Below, piece by piece: positions 1 to 5,680 of a stretch of 41,673 bases of DNA (position 1 is its first letter; every line of letters begins with the position of its first letter). Origin of the DNA: Anaerolineales bacterium (GTDB taxonomy: Bacteria; Chloroflexota; Anaerolineae; Anaerolineales; Villigracilaceae); NCBI GenBank assembly GCA_020060235.1, contig JAGVAO010000045.1, forward strand, positions 1 to 41,673, given 5' to 3'. Position numbers and translations under genes: made by a program. The notes under the pieces were generated by a model. The model did no database searches and had not been told where the DNA came from. It saw nothing but the letters and a program-made list of their open reading frames with translations.

Positions 1-2653
1 GCGAGATGTGCCCGACCAGGTCGCCGGCCTTGACGCCGCGCTTAATCAGGTCTTGCGTCACCGCTACCATAACGGTCACGCTGCCTTCACCGGGCGAGGC
101 AATCACGCACACGCCGTTTTCGGCATATTTGGCGCGGAACTGGTCTGAGAGTTTGGTCAGCGAGTCCTTGTCCACGCCGGGCATTTCGGCCACCAGCAGG
201 CGTACATCGCCAACCATCTGGACGTTGGCAAGCTGCGCGGTGAAAGTCGAAAGAGCCAACTCGGCGCGGGCGGCTGCCAGTTGCTTTTTGACCGTCGCCA
301 GTTCATCCTGCAAGGATTCGGCTTTGGCGGGGACATCCTCCAAACTGGACTTGAGCGTGGCTGCGACATTTTTCAGCGCCTTGAAGCGCTTCGCGACCAG
401 TTCGTACGCCCCGCGGCCGGTCACCGCTTCGATACGGCGGACTCCAGCCGAGGCGGCTTCCTCACGGGTAATGACGAACAGGCCCACATCCGAGGTGCGC
501 TCGAGGTGCGTCCCGCCGCACAGTTCGTAGGAATGCTTATCGTCCGGGTCGCCGATGGTAATCGTGCGCACGACTTCGCCGTATTTCTCGCCAAAGAGCG
601 CCATTGCGCCCTCGGCAATCGCTTCGTCGCGCGATTTCGTCCTGGGCATGACGGACATATCCGCCGCGACGGCCTCGTTGACCAGGCGTTCGACGCGCTC
701 GATTTGCTCCGCGCTCATCGCTTCGGGATGGTTGAAGTCGAAGCGCAGACGGTCGGGCGCAACCAGTGACCCGGCCTGGCGGGCATGTTCGCCCAGAACC
801 TGGTGCAGGGCCGCGTGCATGAGATGGGTGGCGGTGTGATTGCGCATGATGTCGTGGCGGCGGGCCATGTCCACTTCGGCAATTGCCTTGTCGCCCACGC
901 GCGGACGACCGCTGACAACCTCGCCGATGTGCGAAATCAGCCCAGCCGCCGGGCGGCGAACGTCGGTGATTTCAATCTCCCAGCCAATGCCCCCTTCTCG
1001 GTCTCCCCCCATTGTCTGCGAAAATTGGGGGAGAAGGGAGATGGTACCCGTATCACCAACCTGTCCGCCGGCCTCGATGTAGAAACCGGTGCGCGGGATG
1101 ATGATTTCGACCCGGTCGCCAAACTGGGCTTCAGAGACGGAGCGCCCGTCCACGACCAGGGCCAGGACTTCGGCGTTGACTTGCAGGCTGTTATAGGGGT
1201 CGTATTCGACGCCTTTTTCGCCCAGTTTCCCGGCGGCTTGCAATTCCTTGAAAATCCCGGCGAAGTATTCCGAGTCTTCGCCTCCGAGAGCGCCCATGGC
1301 CTTGCCGCCGCCCGAGGCCAGGCGGTGTTCTTCCATACCAGCGCGGAATCCGGCTTCGTCCACATCCAGGTCTTGTTCGCGGGCAATGTCGCGGGTGATT
1401 TCGAAGGGCAGGCCGTAGGTGGCGTACAGTTCAAAGGCCTTGTGACCGTCCATGACGGTTTGGTCTGATTTTTTCAGTTCATCCAGCAGGTCTTGCAGGT
1501 GGGCCACGCCGCTCTCGACCGTGCGTGCAAAGCGGATTTCCTCGCGGGTCAGGTTTTCGAGAATCGGCTGGCGATTCTTGACCAGTTCGGGGTAGAACGC
1601 GCCGTATTCGTCGATAAAAGCATCCGCCACCCTGGCCAGGAACGGCTCGGTCAGGCCGATTTTGGTCCCGAAGCGGGCCGCGCGGCGGACAATCATGCGG
1701 CAGATGTAGTTGCGCCCGGCATTGCCCGGAACGACCCCATCCGCAATCAGGAAGGCCGCCGAGCGGGCATGGTCGGCAATGACGCGATAGGGCGTGAAAT
1801 CGGCGTACATTTCTTCGCGGGTCTTGCCGGTCAGTTGCGCGAGCACGTCCATCGCGCCGTTGAACAGGTCGGTCTTGTAGTTGGAATCGACGCCTTGCAG
1901 CACAGAGACAATGCGCTCGAAGCCCATGCCGGTATCGACATGCTTGGAGGGCAGCGGTTCGAGGCGGCCATCGTCAAACAGGTTGTACTGGATGAAGACA
2001 TTGTTCCACAGTTCGAGGAAACGGGTGCAATCGCCGTTGACGCCGCACTGGTGCGGCTGTCCGCGCAGGTTGTCATGTTCCTCGCCCAGGTCGATGTGGA
2101 TTTCGGAGCACGGGCCGCAGGGGCCGGTCTCGGCCATTTGCCAGAAGTTTTCCTTGCGCCCGAAGTACAGAACGTGGCTGGGGTCGAAGCCGGGCTGCTT
2201 CTTCCAGATGTCGGCGGCTTCCTCGTCGGTCGGGACGTTGCCCTTGTCATCCTTGAAGCAGGTCGCGTAGAGTTTGTCCTTGGGCAGGCCCCAGACATCG
2301 GTTAGCAGCTGCCACGACCAGGCAATGGCTTCTTCCTTGTAATAGTCGCCAAACGACCAGTTGCCGAGCATCTCGAAAAAAGTGTGATGGGTGTCATCGC
2401 GGCCCACATCGTCGAGGTCGTTGTGCTTGCCGGCCACACGCATACATTTTTGCGAGTTGGCGACGCGGGTGTAATCGCGCTTGTCGGTGCCGAGAAAGAC
2501 ATCCTTGAACTGCACCATGCCCGAGTTGGTGAAAAGCAGGGTCGCATCCCCGCCCGGCACGAGCGACATGGAGGGCACAAAGGTATGCCCGTGCTCGACA
2601 AAGAAATCAATAAAGGTCTGGCGAATTTCGTTTCCGGTCAGTTTTTTGCTCAT
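1..2653 (-). CDS. alaS: Alanyl-tRNA synthetase, C-terminal end cut off by window
   Basis: Cytoplasmic enzyme that charges tRNA-Ala and edits mischarged Ser/Gly. The frame is open from the ATG at 2651-2653 to the left edge (884 codons; the E. coli enzyme has 876), so only the extreme C-terminal tail is missing. Visible in order: N-terminal catalytic domain with TFIDFFVEHGH and AETGPCGPCSE, the FYIEAGGQVGDTG start of the editing region, the HTATH zinc motif, CGGTHLERT, and a C-terminal coiled coil/DHHA1 part ending GVKAGDLVGHIS. A GGAG Shine-Dalgarno lies about 7 nt upstream. An unusual in-frame stretch around 987-1040 encodes LLPQFSQTMGGDREGG next to GDTG and sits on an inverted repeat (see findings). 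No frameshift was seen. Identification is firm; the reading frame was checked at 11-31, 1073-1080 and 2135. Confidence 0.97.
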   Translation of the reverse strand, partial: MSKKLTGNEIRQTFIDFFVEHGHTFVPSMSLVPGGDATLLFTNSGMVQFKDVFLGTDKRDYTRVANSQKCMRVAGKHNDLDDVGRDDTHHTFFEMLGNWSFGDYYKEEAIAWSWQLLTDVWGLPKDKLYATCFKDDKGNVPTDEEAADIWKKQPGFDPSHVLYFGRKENFWQMAETGPCGPCSEIHIDLGEEHDNLRGQPHQCGVNGDCTRFLELWNNVFIQYNLFDDGRLEPLPSKHVDTGMGFERIVSVLQGVDSNYKTDLFNGAMDVLAQLTGKTREEMYADFTPYRVIADHARSAAFLIADGVVPGNAGRNYICRMIVRRAARFGTKIGLTEPFLARVADAFIDEYGAFYPELVKNRQPILENLTREEIRFARTVESGVAHLQDLLDELKKSDQTVMDGHKAFELYATYGLPFEITRDIAREQDLDVDEAGFRAGMEEHRLASGGGKAMGALGGEDSEYFAGIFKELQAAGKLGEKGVEYDPYNSLQVNAEVLALVVDGRSVSEAQFGDRVEIIIPRTGFYIEAGGQVGDTGTISLLPQFSQTMGGDREGGIGWEIEITDVRRPAAGLISHIGEVVSGRPRVGDKAIAEVDMARRHDIMRNHTATHLMHAALHQVLGEHARQAGSLVAPDRLRFDFNHPEAMSAEQIERVERLVNEAVAADMSVMPRTKSRDEAIAEGAMALFGEKYGEVVRTITIGDPDDKHSYELCGGTHLERTSDVGLFVITREEAASAGVRRIEAVTGRGAYELVAKRFKALKNVAATLKSSLEDVPAKAESLQDELATVKKQLAAARAELALSTFTAQLANVQMVGDVRLLVAEMPGVDKDSLTKLSDQFRAKYAENGVCVIASPGEGSVTVMVAVTQDLIKRGVKAGDLVGHIS
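987..1040. repeat. Palindromic GC-rich element inside alaS
   Basis: TCTCCCCC (1002-1009) and GGGGGAGA (1027-1034) form an 8-bp inverted repeat, and CCCTTCTC to the left offers a competing pairing with GAGAAGGG. It encodes an extra run of about 16 residues in AlaS just after GDTG, where synthetases normally continue directly. A shorter look-alike (TTCCCCC/GGGGGAA with an A-rich loop) lies between genes at 5693-5717. Confidence 0.5.
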
Positions 2654-2683
2654 GGAGGCTCCGAGATGGTTAAGAGTGAAGGA

Positions 2684-2689
2684 ATTATA
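2684..2689 (-). promoter_or_regulatory. Candidate -10 box of alaS
   Basis: A perfect TATAAT on the minus strand, 30 nt before the alaS ATG. No convincing TTGACA stands 17 bp upstream; that position lies inside the 23-bp-arm palindrome at 2702-2752, so the palindrome would overlap the -35 region. Confidence 0.55.
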
Positions 2690-2701
2690 TCAAGGGGGAG
2701 G

Positions 2702-2752
2702 GGAGTTTCGATATTCGGTATTCGTTACTCGAATACCGAATATCGAAACTCC
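2702..2752. repeat. Perfect 23-bp-arm palindrome upstream of alaS
   Basis: Arms 2702-2724 and 2730-2752 are exact reverse complements with a 5-bp spacer TTACT. The arm core is CGATATTCGGTATTCG, AT-richer than the surroundings. It lies between an apparent terminator and the alaS -10 box. It could be a dispersed palindromic repeat, an operator, or a stable RNA hairpin in the alaS leader. Confidence 0.9.
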
Positions 2753-2786
2753 AAAACAAAACCCCGGGCTGGGAGAGCGCCGGGGC
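2751..2786 (-). terminator. Apparent intrinsic terminator in the alaS leader
   Basis: Read on the minus strand, CCCCGG (2785-2780) pairs with CCGGGG (2767-2762), extendable by two GC pairs across a bulge, and is followed by TTTTGTTTT. It would stop transcripts coming from the histidine kinase or from the short ORF at 2814-2903 before alaS. Confidence 0.5.
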
Positions 2787-2813
2787 GGGTGGATACAGGG
2801 GTAATTTCTCGCG

Positions 2814-2903
2814 TTACGAGCGGCGCAACCAGCAGGATGTGAAAGCCCCGGCTTTTGCAGCCGGGCGGGTAGCGGAGGCGCGTAAGGCAAGTTCGAGTTT
2901 CAT
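2814..2903 (-). CDS. Putative 29-residue alanine-rich leader peptide upstream of alaS
   Basis: A short ORF starting ATG-AAA-CTC and ending TAA. Seven of its 29 codons are Ala (codons 6, 9, 11, 15, 16, 18, 20). A TATAAT box ends 7 nt before the ATG, the same spacing as the leaderless genes of this window. Codons 13-15 contain CCCGGCT and codons 17-20 contain GCCGGGGC; these can pair with each other, and GCCGGGGC is also exactly complementary to GCCCCGGC at 2786-2779, the 5-prime arm of the downstream terminator. This is the geometry of a ribosome-mediated attenuator ahead of an alanyl-tRNA synthetase. Attenuation of a synthetase operon by a leader peptide is known for E. coli pheST. Alanine is common in GC-rich genomes, so the ORF could be chance. 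Confidence 0.35.
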   Translation of the reverse strand: MKLELALRASATRPAAKAGAFTSCWLRRS

Positions 2904-2910
2904 GGGGCAG

Positions 2911-2916
2911 ATTATA
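2911..2916 (-). promoter_or_regulatory. -10 box 7 nt before the leader ORF
   Basis: Perfect TATAAT on the minus strand, 7 bp past the histidine kinase stop codon. Transcription would start about at the A of the leader ORF's ATG. No clear -35 and no TGn extension. Confidence 0.45.
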
Positions 2917-2923
2917 CCTTAAA

Positions 2924-4693
2924 TCAACCCCTCACCAGCGGTAGTGTGACCGTAAAGGTGCTGCCCTGGCCGGGCTGGCTTTCGACGCGGATTTGGCCTT
3001 TCATCAGTTCGACCAGTTGCTTGGTAATCGATAATCCCAGGCCGGTACCGCGGTTGCGGCTGGTAATGGCGTCATCGACCTGGCGAAACGGCTCGAAGAT
3101 GAATTCCTGTTCGGCAGCCGAGATTCCGCGCCCGGTGTCGAAGACGGCAAATACCCAATGGGTGGCGTCGAGAAGGCGAATATCCAAAATCACCTGTCCC
3201 TGGTCGGTGAATTTGACGGCATTCTCGAGCAGGTTGGTGAAAACCTGCTCGAGGCGGTGTTCATCGCCATACAGCGCTTTGGGCAGGTCGGGCGCAACCT
3301 TCATCTCGAAACCCAGTCCCTTGGCGCTTGCCAGGCCGGAGAAATGCGCATCGAGCCGGTAAAAAAGCGGTTCGAGCGACAGGCGGGCATTTTGCAGAGC
3401 AAGCGTCTCAGCGCCGAGCTGGGCCTGGTCAAGCAGGTCGTCAATAATGCCGCGCAGGTAATTGGTGCTTTCGATAATTTCTTCTGTAAATTCGGCCTGT
3501 TTGGGATTCAACTCGCCAAATGAATTCATTTGCAACAATTCGGCAAAACCCAAAATGCCGCCCAGCGGGGTGCGTAACTCGTGGCTGACCCTTGCAAGCA
3601 GATGGCTCTTGAGGCGGCTGGCTTCCCTGGCCTGCTCGAGCGCAACCGCGAATGCGTTTTCGATTTCCTTGCGGGCAGTAATATCGCGCAAAATAATGAC
3701 CCTGCCCAGAAATTCCTGATAGCGGTCGTACAGGGGAGAAATCTGCAATTCGAACCAGCGGCCGTCCTCGACGGGGATTTCTTCACGGGCGTCGGTTACG
3801 CTCCGGTAACGGTCAACCAGCTCGGGCCAGGCGGCGAACATCCCGGCAACTGATTTGCCAATCGCCCGGGAAGCGGAAATCCCGACCATTTGCGCGGCGG
3901 CTGGGTTGACATCCACAACCAGTCCTTGGGCATCGATGACGACCATGCCGTCCTTCATCTCATCGACAATCAGGTCGCGGGCAATCGGGGCCAGTTCGAC
4001 CAGCCGAAAGCCGAGGATGGCCCAGGTCAGGAACAGGACCGTGACGGTAAAGGCAAAGGGCGTCAGGTCGAGATAAGGGATGGGGTTGAAGCCGGAAAAG
4101 TAGAGAATGTTACCCAACCAGGGGGCCAGCACAGAAATAATCAGGGCTACCGCCTGGCGGCGGTGCAGTCCCTGGCGGCGGCGCAGGGTGCCAAAGACCA
4201 GCATCGTGCCAGCCAGGATTAGCAGATACGAATAGCCAACATGCACCCAATACCAGGGGCCAAATTCAACATTGAAATCTGAAAACGCCCCTGCTTGCAG
4301 CCATTCGGGGTTGACCCAGAAAAGGCCGTGCCAGCGGGTGGTCACGGCAATCAGGCTGGTCAGGGCAGGCACAATGGCGAGGGCGGCCATCCATCGCCGG
4401 GTGAGGGCCTGGCTGCCCCAATTGGAGAATCGGATGGCAAAGAAAAGCCAGAGCAGGGGTGTTGTGGCAATCCCGATATATTTGATTTCCCCAAAAAGCA
4501 CCTTGGTTTGCAAATTGGCCCCGGCGAGTTGCAGGGTATAGAAGACCAGCCATTGCGTCAGGGCCAGCGAAAGGAAGGAGAGCAGCAGGGCATTGCGCGC
4601 AGCCCGGTGCCGCCAGCCATAGTAGGCTATCCAGCAGGCAATCAAAGCGGCGACAAAAACGGGCAAGGCGTAGGGGGTATATTGAAATTGCAT
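2924..4693 (-). CDS. 7TM-PAS sensor histidine kinase
   Basis: Membrane sensor kinase of 589 residues. Residues 1-230 hold about seven hydrophobic segments (HisKA_7TM type); a PAS domain covers about 243-340. The dimerisation/phosphoacceptor helix contains SHELRTP with His371, and the HATPase domain has the N box around Asn491, G1 DTGRG (519-523) and G2 GTGLGLS (549-555), so all catalytic motifs are intact. The ATG at 4691-4693 is preferred: a longer frame to 4879 would overlap the divergent lipase gene and adds no recognisable sequence. AAAGG lies just upstream. No response regulator is encoded next to it, so it is an orphan and its signal and partner are unknown. Confidence 0.93.
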   Translation of the reverse strand: MQFQYTPYALPVFVAALIACWIAYYGWRHRAARNALLLSFLSLALTQWLVFYTLQLAGANLQTKVLFGEIKYIGIATTPLLWLFFAIRFSNWGSQALTRRWMAALAIVPALTSLIAVTTRWHGLFWVNPEWLQAGAFSDFNVEFGPWYWVHVGYSYLLILAGTMLVFGTLRRRQGLHRRQAVALIISVLAPWLGNILYFSGFNPIPYLDLTPFAFTVTVLFLTWAILGFRLVELAPIARDLIVDEMKDGMVVIDAQGLVVDVNPAAAQMVGISASRAIGKSVAGMFAAWPELVDRYRSVTDAREEIPVEDGRWFELQISPLYDRYQEFLGRVIILRDITARKEIENAFAVALEQAREASRLKSHLLARVSHELRTPLGGILGFAELLQMNSFGELNPKQAEFTEEIIESTNYLRGIIDDLLDQAQLGAETLALQNARLSLEPLFYRLDAHFSGLASAKGLGFEMKVAPDLPKALYGDEHRLEQVFTNLLENAVKFTDQGQVILDIRLLDATHWVFAVFDTGRGISAAEQEFIFEPFRQVDDAITSRNRGTGLGLSITKQLVELMKGQIRVESQPGQGSTFTVTLPLVRG

Positions 4694-4730
4694 ATTGAGC
4701 CTTTTGAAAATGCGCAACCAGGATGGCTGG

Positions 4731-4739
4731 ATTTTACCA
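4731..4739 (-). promoter_or_regulatory. Extended -10 of the histidine kinase
   Basis: TGGTAAAAT on the minus strand, 37 nt before the kinase ATG, in the 156-bp divergent gap shared with the lipase gene. Confidence 0.4.
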
Positions 4740-4849
4740 TTCGCGGAATTCACCGAAGAGATGAAAAACAGAACATCTTCGTGCATTCTTATATGTAAAT
4801 CAGACCAAAACTGTGCAATAATAGACTCATTCGCCAAAGGAGGTACGCC

Positions 4850-5680
4850 ATGTTCTTTCCCCCCGGATTCGACAAACAACGCGCCATCGAGTTGGGCAGG
4901 CTGGTTGCCCAGGCCTACCAGCGGTTTGATGATTACAAAATCAACAAACCCTGGAAAATCAAAGACGGCTATACGCTCGTTTGCGAGATTTCGTACCGCA
5001 CATTTTTATCGTTTAATGCGGAGGATGAAGAAAACAAAACCGCCATCGACCGCGAGATGGAGGCCGTCATCGAAAGCCAGCCGGTTTCCTTCGGCCTGGA
5101 AGACATCCTTTACAAAGACGTGCCGATGGGCTTTGTGGCAACCAAAGACTCGACCGCCTACCTGATTTTTCGCGGAACCGTCACCCCGCGCGAATGGCTC
5201 TTCGATGTCAACATCCGAATGCAGAATTATCGGCTCAAAAACTGGGGCAAGGTTTCAGACGGATTCCAGAACATCTACCGGCGCAGTCGCGACAGTTTCA
5301 TGAAGACACTGGCCAAACTTTCGGCAGACTATCCGCTCTTCATCGGCGGACACAGCCTGGGCGGCGCGTTGAGCCTGCTTTCGCTGCCAGATGTCGCCCA
5401 TTCGACCCACTTCAAATCGCCAACGTTGTACAACTTTGGCGGCCCGCGGGTCGGCGATGCTGTTTTTGCAAGCAACTACAACGAGTTGGCCTGGGAAAGA
5501 ACCTTCCGGGTGGTCAATTCCTGCGACCTGGTAACGGCCATCCCGCTGCCGGTTGTCATCCCGGCCCTGCCAAGCGGATACTATACCCATGTCGGGGTGC
5601 CGGTCGAGTTCACTTTCCAGGGCGAAGGGCTGAGCCTCAACCACTCGATGGATACCTATATCGCTGCGCTTCAAGAATAA
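4850..5680 (+). CDS. Class 3 lipase (alpha/beta hydrolase)
   Basis: A 276-residue triacylglycerol-lipase-like hydrolase (Lipase_3 family). The oxyanion strand YLIFRGT is at 104-110, the nucleophile elbow GGHSLGGA places Ser169, the acid is probably Asp226 in NSCDLVTAIP, and the base is His265 in LNHSMD. The family's usual VHxGF is here VSDGF. No signal peptide is visible, so a cytoplasmic or membrane-surface role on lipids is likely; the substrate cannot be told. A strong AAAGGAGG Shine-Dalgarno fixes the start. It is divergent from the histidine kinase. Confidence 0.9.
   Translation: MFFPPGFDKQRAIELGRLVAQAYQRFDDYKINKPWKIKDGYTLVCEISYRTFLSFNAEDEENKTAIDREMEAVIESQPVSFGLEDILYKDVPMGFVATKDSTAYLIFRGTVTPREWLFDVNIRMQNYRLKNWGKVSDGFQNIYRRSRDSFMKTLAKLSADYPLFIGGHSLGGALSLLSLPDVAHSTHFKSPTLYNFGGPRVGDAVFASNYNELAWERTFRVVNSCDLVTAIPLPVVIPALPSGYYTHVGVPVEFTFQGEGLSLNHSMDTYIAALQE

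Follow-up and report, generated by a model that had tools for sequence, protein, structure and literature searches.

The trp, his, pheA, and pheST operons of Escherichia coli are the classical ribosome-mediated transcription attenuators, and pheST is itself an aminoacyl-tRNA synthetase operon. T-boxes (RF00230) place synthetase genes under the control of tRNA charging through a terminator/antiterminator switch, with a specifier loop as the sensor. The attenuation of aminoacyl-tRNA operons has reportedly been the subject of a comparative study by Lopatovskaya et al. in 2010 (cited in PMC4833913), and some of the sites described below may have been predicted there; no report of leader-peptide attenuation in the Chloroflexota (Chloroflexi) was found in the open-access literature. 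In the survey of the synthetase operons of Actinobacteria by Seliverstov et al. in 2005, alaS is unmentioned (PMC1262725). The control of alaS by an Ala leader was found in a single open-access report, for one Streptomyces genome. In Streptomyces lividans TK24, the Ala-rich AlaL (MNVIGRNIFATARATSSPVAAA) ahead of alaS was listed as an attenuator from RNA-seq and was called previously undescribed in bacteria, and most of the other leader peptides of that study were described as transcribed leaderless (PMC8079986).

In this report, we describe a short Ala-rich ORF, followed by an intrinsic terminator, ahead of alaS in a 41,673-nucleotide contig from an Anaerolineales bacterium (the window), together with its counterparts in related genomes. 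We estimate at about 85% the probability that alaS is controlled by this element through leader-peptide (ribosome-mediated) attenuation of transcription. The element resembles AlaL in that an Ala-rich leader ORF precedes alaS in both; the two come from different phyla and have no obvious sequence similarity when compared by eye. AlaL was reported from one genome, whereas the leader described here occurs in dozens; its intrinsic terminator is conserved, and competing helices were computed for it. It shares with the classical attenuators a leader ORF rich in codons for the cognate residue and an intrinsic terminator, along with candidate alternative 1:2, 2:3, and 3:4 helices, but it is probably leaderless, employs Ala codons, and belongs to a Chloroflexota host, and its type II form (see below) lacks a single statistically outstanding 2:3 helix. 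With the T-boxes, it would have in common a synthetase gene responsive to tRNA charging and a switch between terminator and antiterminator, but the proposed sensor is the translating ribosome rather than a specifier loop.

Leader Element Upstream of alaS

The genome that contains the window (as contig C17) spans 4.0 Mb in 279 contigs, and the features of the locus are listed in Table 1. The sequence-only reading of this DNA had placed an Ala-rich leader ORF, a TATAAT box, a set of pairing words, and a terminator ahead of alaS, and every word and coordinate was found to be correct on the minus strand when the sequence was rechecked. The Ala codons of the leader are numbers 6, 9, 11, 15, 16, 18, and 20 of 29. 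Within region 2, the word AGCCGGG (2853-2847) is the partner of region 1, and GCCGGGGC (2852-2845) is the partner of region 3. The product of alaS was matched to TIGR00344 in a profile search (845.7 bits versus a cutoff of 457, E = 4.3e-254), and in a sequence search it was most similar to the AlaRS of Anaerolineales and Anaerolineae MAGs. A sensor histidine kinase gene lies upstream of the leader (2924-4879, minus strand) and is not kept beside alaS in relatives.

Table 1. Features of the alaS Leader Region in the Window
Feature	Position	Strand	Remark
leader promoter, -10 box TATAAT	2916-2911	-	7 nt ahead of the leader ATG at 2903
leader ORF, 29 codons, MKLELALRASATRPAAKAGAFTSCWLRRS	2903-2814	-	7 Ala
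region 1, CCCGGCT	2865-2859	-	partner is region 2
region 2, AGCCGGGGC	2853-2845	-	partner is region 1 or region 3 (putative antiterminator)
intrinsic terminator hairpin	2761-2786	-	about -17 kcal/mol
region 3, GCCCCGGC	2786-2779	-	5' arm of the terminator
region 4, CCGGGG	2767-2762	-	pairs with region 3 in the terminator
terminator T tail, TTTTGTTTT	2761-2753	-	from the sequence recheck
proximal promoter-like site, TCGAAA, 16 nt, TATAAT (box 2689-2684)	2684-2711	-	between the terminator and alaS
GGAG, Shine-Dalgarno-like, for alaS	2659-2662	-	from the sequence
alaS, alanyl-tRNA synthetase, ATG 2653	2-2653	-	884 aa in the window; gene exceeds the window end

A 51-nt palindrome (2702-2752; GGAGTTTCGATATTCGGTATTCG-AGTAA-CGAATACCGAATATCGAAACTCC), in which a 5-nt loop joins two arms of 23 nt, is located between the terminator and alaS. 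This palindrome is a dispersed repeat: related copies are present at other sites of the genome and in relatives. At this position it is swapped for other sequence in relatives, and it lies outside the conserved block described below. No Rfam family was matched in the window at the gathering threshold. The T-box covariance model likewise gave no match to the window at this threshold, and the permissive matches at 2600-2960 include no T-box. The permissive Rfam matches, mostly of microRNA models to the palindrome, were rejected as chance.

In the fold of the free transcript, the ORF lies in a long hairpin that includes CCCGGCT/AGCCGGG (1:2), and the terminator, which is overlooked by a simple terminator scan, folds apart from it. 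The single-window folding statistics are weak, with z of -2.1 for the window and -0.9 for its relative G001, and were therefore not taken as proof.

Conservation of the Leader

A DNA search of 60 relatives located the whole block, -10 box through terminator, in G001 (83% identity) and G002 (78%), and the 5' half of the block in G028, which belongs to another genus (81% over about 72 nt). In these three genomes alaS is directly downstream of the block, and the upstream gene varies. Covariance model R1 gave 11 matches in 152 genomes of the family, 10 of which are immediately upstream of alaS. The divergent matches retain the layout rather than the sequence, as in G164 (MKSSLKPASARAAAATCATCKPATA), G133 (MKQTFKPSAAAQAAAATCATCEPATA), and G073 (MKQELKFHAAAALATSAAQALGLLCEPVTA).

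The alaS upstream regions of the same bacterial family were surveyed, and 125 were usable. An ORF that begins 6-9 nt after a TATAAT-like box was found in 51 of these regions, and all 51 ORFs are Ala-rich, with 20-38 codons, 4-10 Ala each, and a mean of 30% Ala; the leaders share descent, and the counts are not those of independent events. Dinucleotide shuffles of the 125 regions yielded 3.55 such ORFs, of which 0.1 were Ala-rich, and the reverse strand yielded one, which was not Ala-rich. A hairpin (mean of -17.3 kcal/mol) and a T-run follow each of the 51 leaders. An alignment of related alaS upstream regions had been proposed as a check on the element; the Ala-rich ORF, the spacing to the -10 box, the terminator, and the linkage to alaS were found to be conserved over eight genera of the family and in another family of the order.

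This comparison already refutes the reading that the element arose by chance from a GC-rich intergenic stretch and an alanine-rich proteome. GC-rich words do pair readily, as the sequence-only reading had itself cautioned, and the 2:3 complementarity of the window taken alone gives p = 0.095 versus shuffles. The count of 51 in 125 against 0.1 expected and the DNA block conserved across genera reduce the probability of a chance origin to practically nothing.

The distribution of the leader is patchy. The whole element is absent upstream of alaS in the congeners G003 and G004, and other genera are also without a leader. In the second family of the order (f8), six genomes have an Ala-rich leader, for example, MKTDKTLIFSNTKAAAMAAAASAGAVAGAATSESQTVA, and then a terminator. 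These f8 leaders (L225, L229, L235, L255, L258, and L259) are longer and Ala-rich, and the terminator is mostly different (GGCCCGGACA...GTCCGGGC). In most other sampled families of the order, no Ala-rich leader was found before alaS. Among 80 scanned alaS loci of named genomes, this layout was found only in three Anaerolineales/Anaerolineae MAGs; the scanned loci from outside the Chloroflexota, a set without Streptomyces, had no Ala-rich leader of this layout. In G133, a second leader (MQQTFTSSRPLYTRSVTA; L198, G133:C369:30721-30841, minus strand) is located 1.4 kb upstream of the alaS leader, before a membrane-protein-like gene. It is decayed, with the Ala run gone and the same terminator.

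Reading Frame and Probable Start of Transcription

In the leader set, Ala accounts for 30.5% of the residues in the frame of the ORF versus about 6% in the two other frames of the same strand. The word GCYCRAGC of the type II leaders is found at 27, 30, 33, 39, or 51 nt from the ATG, and it is in phase in 34 of 34 cases. The gaps from the stop codon to the terminator are spread across the three phases (19/17/15), and G036 carries an insertion of 21 nt (7 codons) within the 1:2 loop. The pN/pS is 0.80, a value that says little and is no proof of coding alone because the RNA itself is constrained. We infer from these sequence features that the leader ORF is translated.

The spacing between the -10 box and the ATG was found to be 7 nt in 38 leaders, 8 nt in 11, 6 nt in one, and 9 nt in one. 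A spacing of 7 or 8 nt puts the start of transcription at or beside the ATG, which argues for leaderless translation; in the window, transcription of the leader probably starts at or beside its ATG.

The restriction of the Ala bias to one reading frame of the strand and the phase that the conserved word keeps with the ATG despite the variable spacing also make it very unlikely that AlaRS, tRNA-Ala, or alanine is the direct sensor or signal at the leader RNA (through autoregulation, a T-box-like element, or a riboswitch), with the ORF being incidental. The high nucleotide conservation would fit such sensing, and the AlaRS of E. coli is a repressor of its own gene. However, no T-box or other Rfam match was obtained at the leader, though the genome does have candidate T-boxes at other sites.

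Candidate Competing Helices and Modeled Ribosome Stalling

An attenuator read by a translating ribosome would depend on competing RNA helices, and two layouts of the leader RNA were found. In type I (the genus of the window, G028, G036, and G107), region 1 is GCCCGGC, region 2 is GCCGGG, and region 3 is CCCGGC. Candidate mutually exclusive 1:2, 2:3, and 3:4 helices are present in the window, at the p value for 2:3 given above, and in its close relatives. The 1:2 helix is kept in G001, G002, G028, G036, and G107; its one compensatory change, U-A to A-U, is in G036. The 2:3 helix of the window has 8 bp, and its counterpart in G001 and G002 (GCCGGGGUAAA/UUUGCCCCGGC) has 11 bp. Type II is the layout of most genera; there, the Ala run contains CTCAAGCC, and a complementary word, GGCTTGAG, is located at or close to the stop codon of the ORF. 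GGCTTGAG stays conserved in type II leaders with an earlier end of the ORF, and RNAalifold shows the CTCAAGCC/GGCTTGAG pairing and the terminator.

Covarying 1:2, 2:3, and 3:4 pairs had also been proposed as a check. Competing pairings are seen in relatives, among them the compensated 1:2 helix of G036 and the 2:3 helix of the window genus, but the exact helices vary among lineages. The 2:3 complementarity reached p <= 0.05 versus shuffles in 15 of the 51 alaS leaders.

The effect of a ribosome on the leader RNA was computed by constrained folding of the 51 leaders, with the positions under the ribosome (-15 to +12 relative to the A site) forced to be unpaired. The transcripts were cut right before the 3' arm of the terminator because full-length equilibrium folding kept the terminator dominant in most leaders despite a stalled ribosome. 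The value for capture of the terminator's 5' arm by upstream RNA was 0.54 with the ribosome in the Ala run. It was 0.33 both for the free transcript and when the ribosome had yet to reach the Ala run, 0.32 once the run had been passed, and 0.31 at the stop codon; the Ala-run value exceeded that of the free transcript in 50 of the 51 leaders. In these model structures, it is stalling at the Ala codons, and not at the stop codon, that frees the antiterminator on average over the leaders, and the computed capture is the pattern predicted for an attenuator.

The results for the window by itself are mixed. Full-length folding gave the terminator a probability of 0.98, which dropped to 0.52-0.54 when the ribosome occupied Ala codon 6 or 9. 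With the truncated transcript, the value for the 5' arm was 0.64 at the stop codon versus 0.59-0.60 at Ala codons 6 and 9; the occupancy of the 5' arm was 0.59-0.79 over Ala codons 6-11 and 0.38 when averaged over the densest Ala stretch. The proposal in the sequence-only reading that a ribosome stalled at Ala codons would free region 2 is supported by the computed average of the 51 leaders and left ambiguous by the window alone. Since the terminator is usually dominant at equilibrium, the model needs co-transcriptional kinetics, in which the order of synthesis matters.

Probable Proximal Promoter

It had also been observed that alaS has a TATAAT of its own downstream of the terminator, and this is the case in the window (Table 1). 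A proximal TATAAT-like box shortly before alaS was found in 49 of the 51 regions with a leader and in 65 of the 74 regions without one. The alaS leaders of G107 and G028 are without a recognizable proximal -10 box. The proximal promoter-like site is probably a basal promoter, to judge from its sequence, and it could bypass the attenuator. With this site present in 49 of 51 regions, attenuation would add inducible transcription to basal transcription.

The same box would also suit an independent short gene or small RNA that has a promoter and terminator of its own, in which case alaS would be transcribed from the proximal promoter and would be unregulated by the leader. The small-RNA reading was weighed because the nucleotide conservation is high, and it is retained solely as a rival; it would also fit the RNA word AACCTGYCACGGCTTGAGAC, which is more conserved than the peptide and is kept where the ORF ends earlier. 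What makes a stand-alone gene unlikely is the strict linkage to alaS despite varying upstream genes and the identity of the biased residue, which corresponds to the amino acid used by the enzyme encoded downstream, for alaS and likewise for the Asn/Asp leaders of aspS and the Tyr leader of tyrS. The missing proximal box in G107 and G028 also speaks against it. We continue below with the reading of the leader as an attenuator of alaS.

Leaders of Other Synthetase Genes

Weak matches of model R2 pointed to aspS, and nearly all of the 30 aspS loci from the first search were found to carry a leader such as MQTSFANNNNDNDNDAPRGVGRSMAG. In total, 39 distinct Asn/Asp-rich aspS leaders with 1:2:3:4 complementarity and a terminator were found in the family (L293 at G000:C30:1800-2500, L261-L290, L299-L305, and L309). 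The divergent aspS leader in the genome of the window, MRELFTTAKDANNSLLAGWCRTGGIVIPA, is counted among the 39. In leaders of the common form, region 2 is GTTGGGCGA, a complement of the terminator's 5' arm, TCGCCCAAC. The aspS leaders share the layout of the alaS leaders, with a -10 box often 6-9 nt before the ATG, a run of cognate codons, 1:2:3:4 complementarity, a terminator, and then the synthetase gene. They differ from the alaS leaders in having two kinds of control codons and a much stronger 2:3 complementarity, for which p <= 0.05 was obtained in 35 of the 39. The computed capture of the 5' arm was 0.65 for the free transcript; it was 0.83 when the ribosome occupied Asn/Asp codons, 0.49 when it occupied other codons, and 0.51 at the stop codon. 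In two aspS leaders the frame is shifted past the Asn/Asp run and the RNA word is retained. The terminator is 21-39 nt from the start of aspS in some genomes, and the gap of 35 nt in the genome of the window leaves little room for another promoter.

The two kinds of control codons fit the arrangement in G006, where aspS and then asnS are in tandem on the same strand behind one Asn/Asp leader (L310, G006:C3:119900-124100); asnS is several kilobases from aspS or absent in other genomes. If this reading is true, a single mixed Asn/Asp leader would sense the charging of two tRNAs.

In one genome, G018, tyrS is preceded by a putatively leaderless ORF with four Tyr in a row (MLELKCKSYYYYSHP) and a terminator (L308, G018:C11:298000-300000, with the ORF near 85-150 of L308). 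A search for a His-codon leader pattern gave no clear His leader, and the matches shown resemble ordinary leaderless genes. Two Pro-rich candidates were rejected: that in G000:C147 is the beginning of an ordinary long ORF, and that in G018:C10 precedes an apparently unrelated gene. Candidate T-boxes were found in 41 genomes of the order, mostly with 5-8 matches per genome (for example, G000:C117:1267-1529). T-boxes are thus common in the same order, and two charging sensors would coexist there.

Proposed Mechanism and Significance

Leaderless ribosome-mediated attenuation of transcription, and not of translation, is the likeliest mechanism for the alaS leader. The sequence-only reading had called the element a translational attenuator; the switch that it describes, and that the comparison supports, would be coupled to translation, but the step under control would be transcription. 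The promoter with the -10 box at 2916-2911 would begin the transcript at or beside the leader ATG, and a ribosome would load on the leaderless mRNA. When Ala-tRNA is scarce, the ribosome would stall at the Ala codons, which in the window are most likely 6, 9, and 11, and would prevent region 1 from pairing with region 2. The freed region 2 would then form the 2:3 helix with the terminator's 5' arm, and RNA polymerase would continue into alaS. If the leader is untranslated, the 1:2 helix would form and the terminator would form too. The second promoter, closer to alaS, would provide basal transcription.

It appears likely that the Anaerolineales tune several synthetase genes by leaderless attenuators (Ala for alaS, Asn and Asp for aspS, and Tyr for tyrS) alongside T-boxes, and this wider set of synthetase leaders in the lineage is of more interest than the alaS element alone. 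With a conserved series in dozens of genomes and the aspS leaders as a sister system, the control of synthetase genes by leaderless leaders becomes directly testable. These leaders would also constitute a natural set for studying attenuation under ribosome loading on leaderless mRNA.
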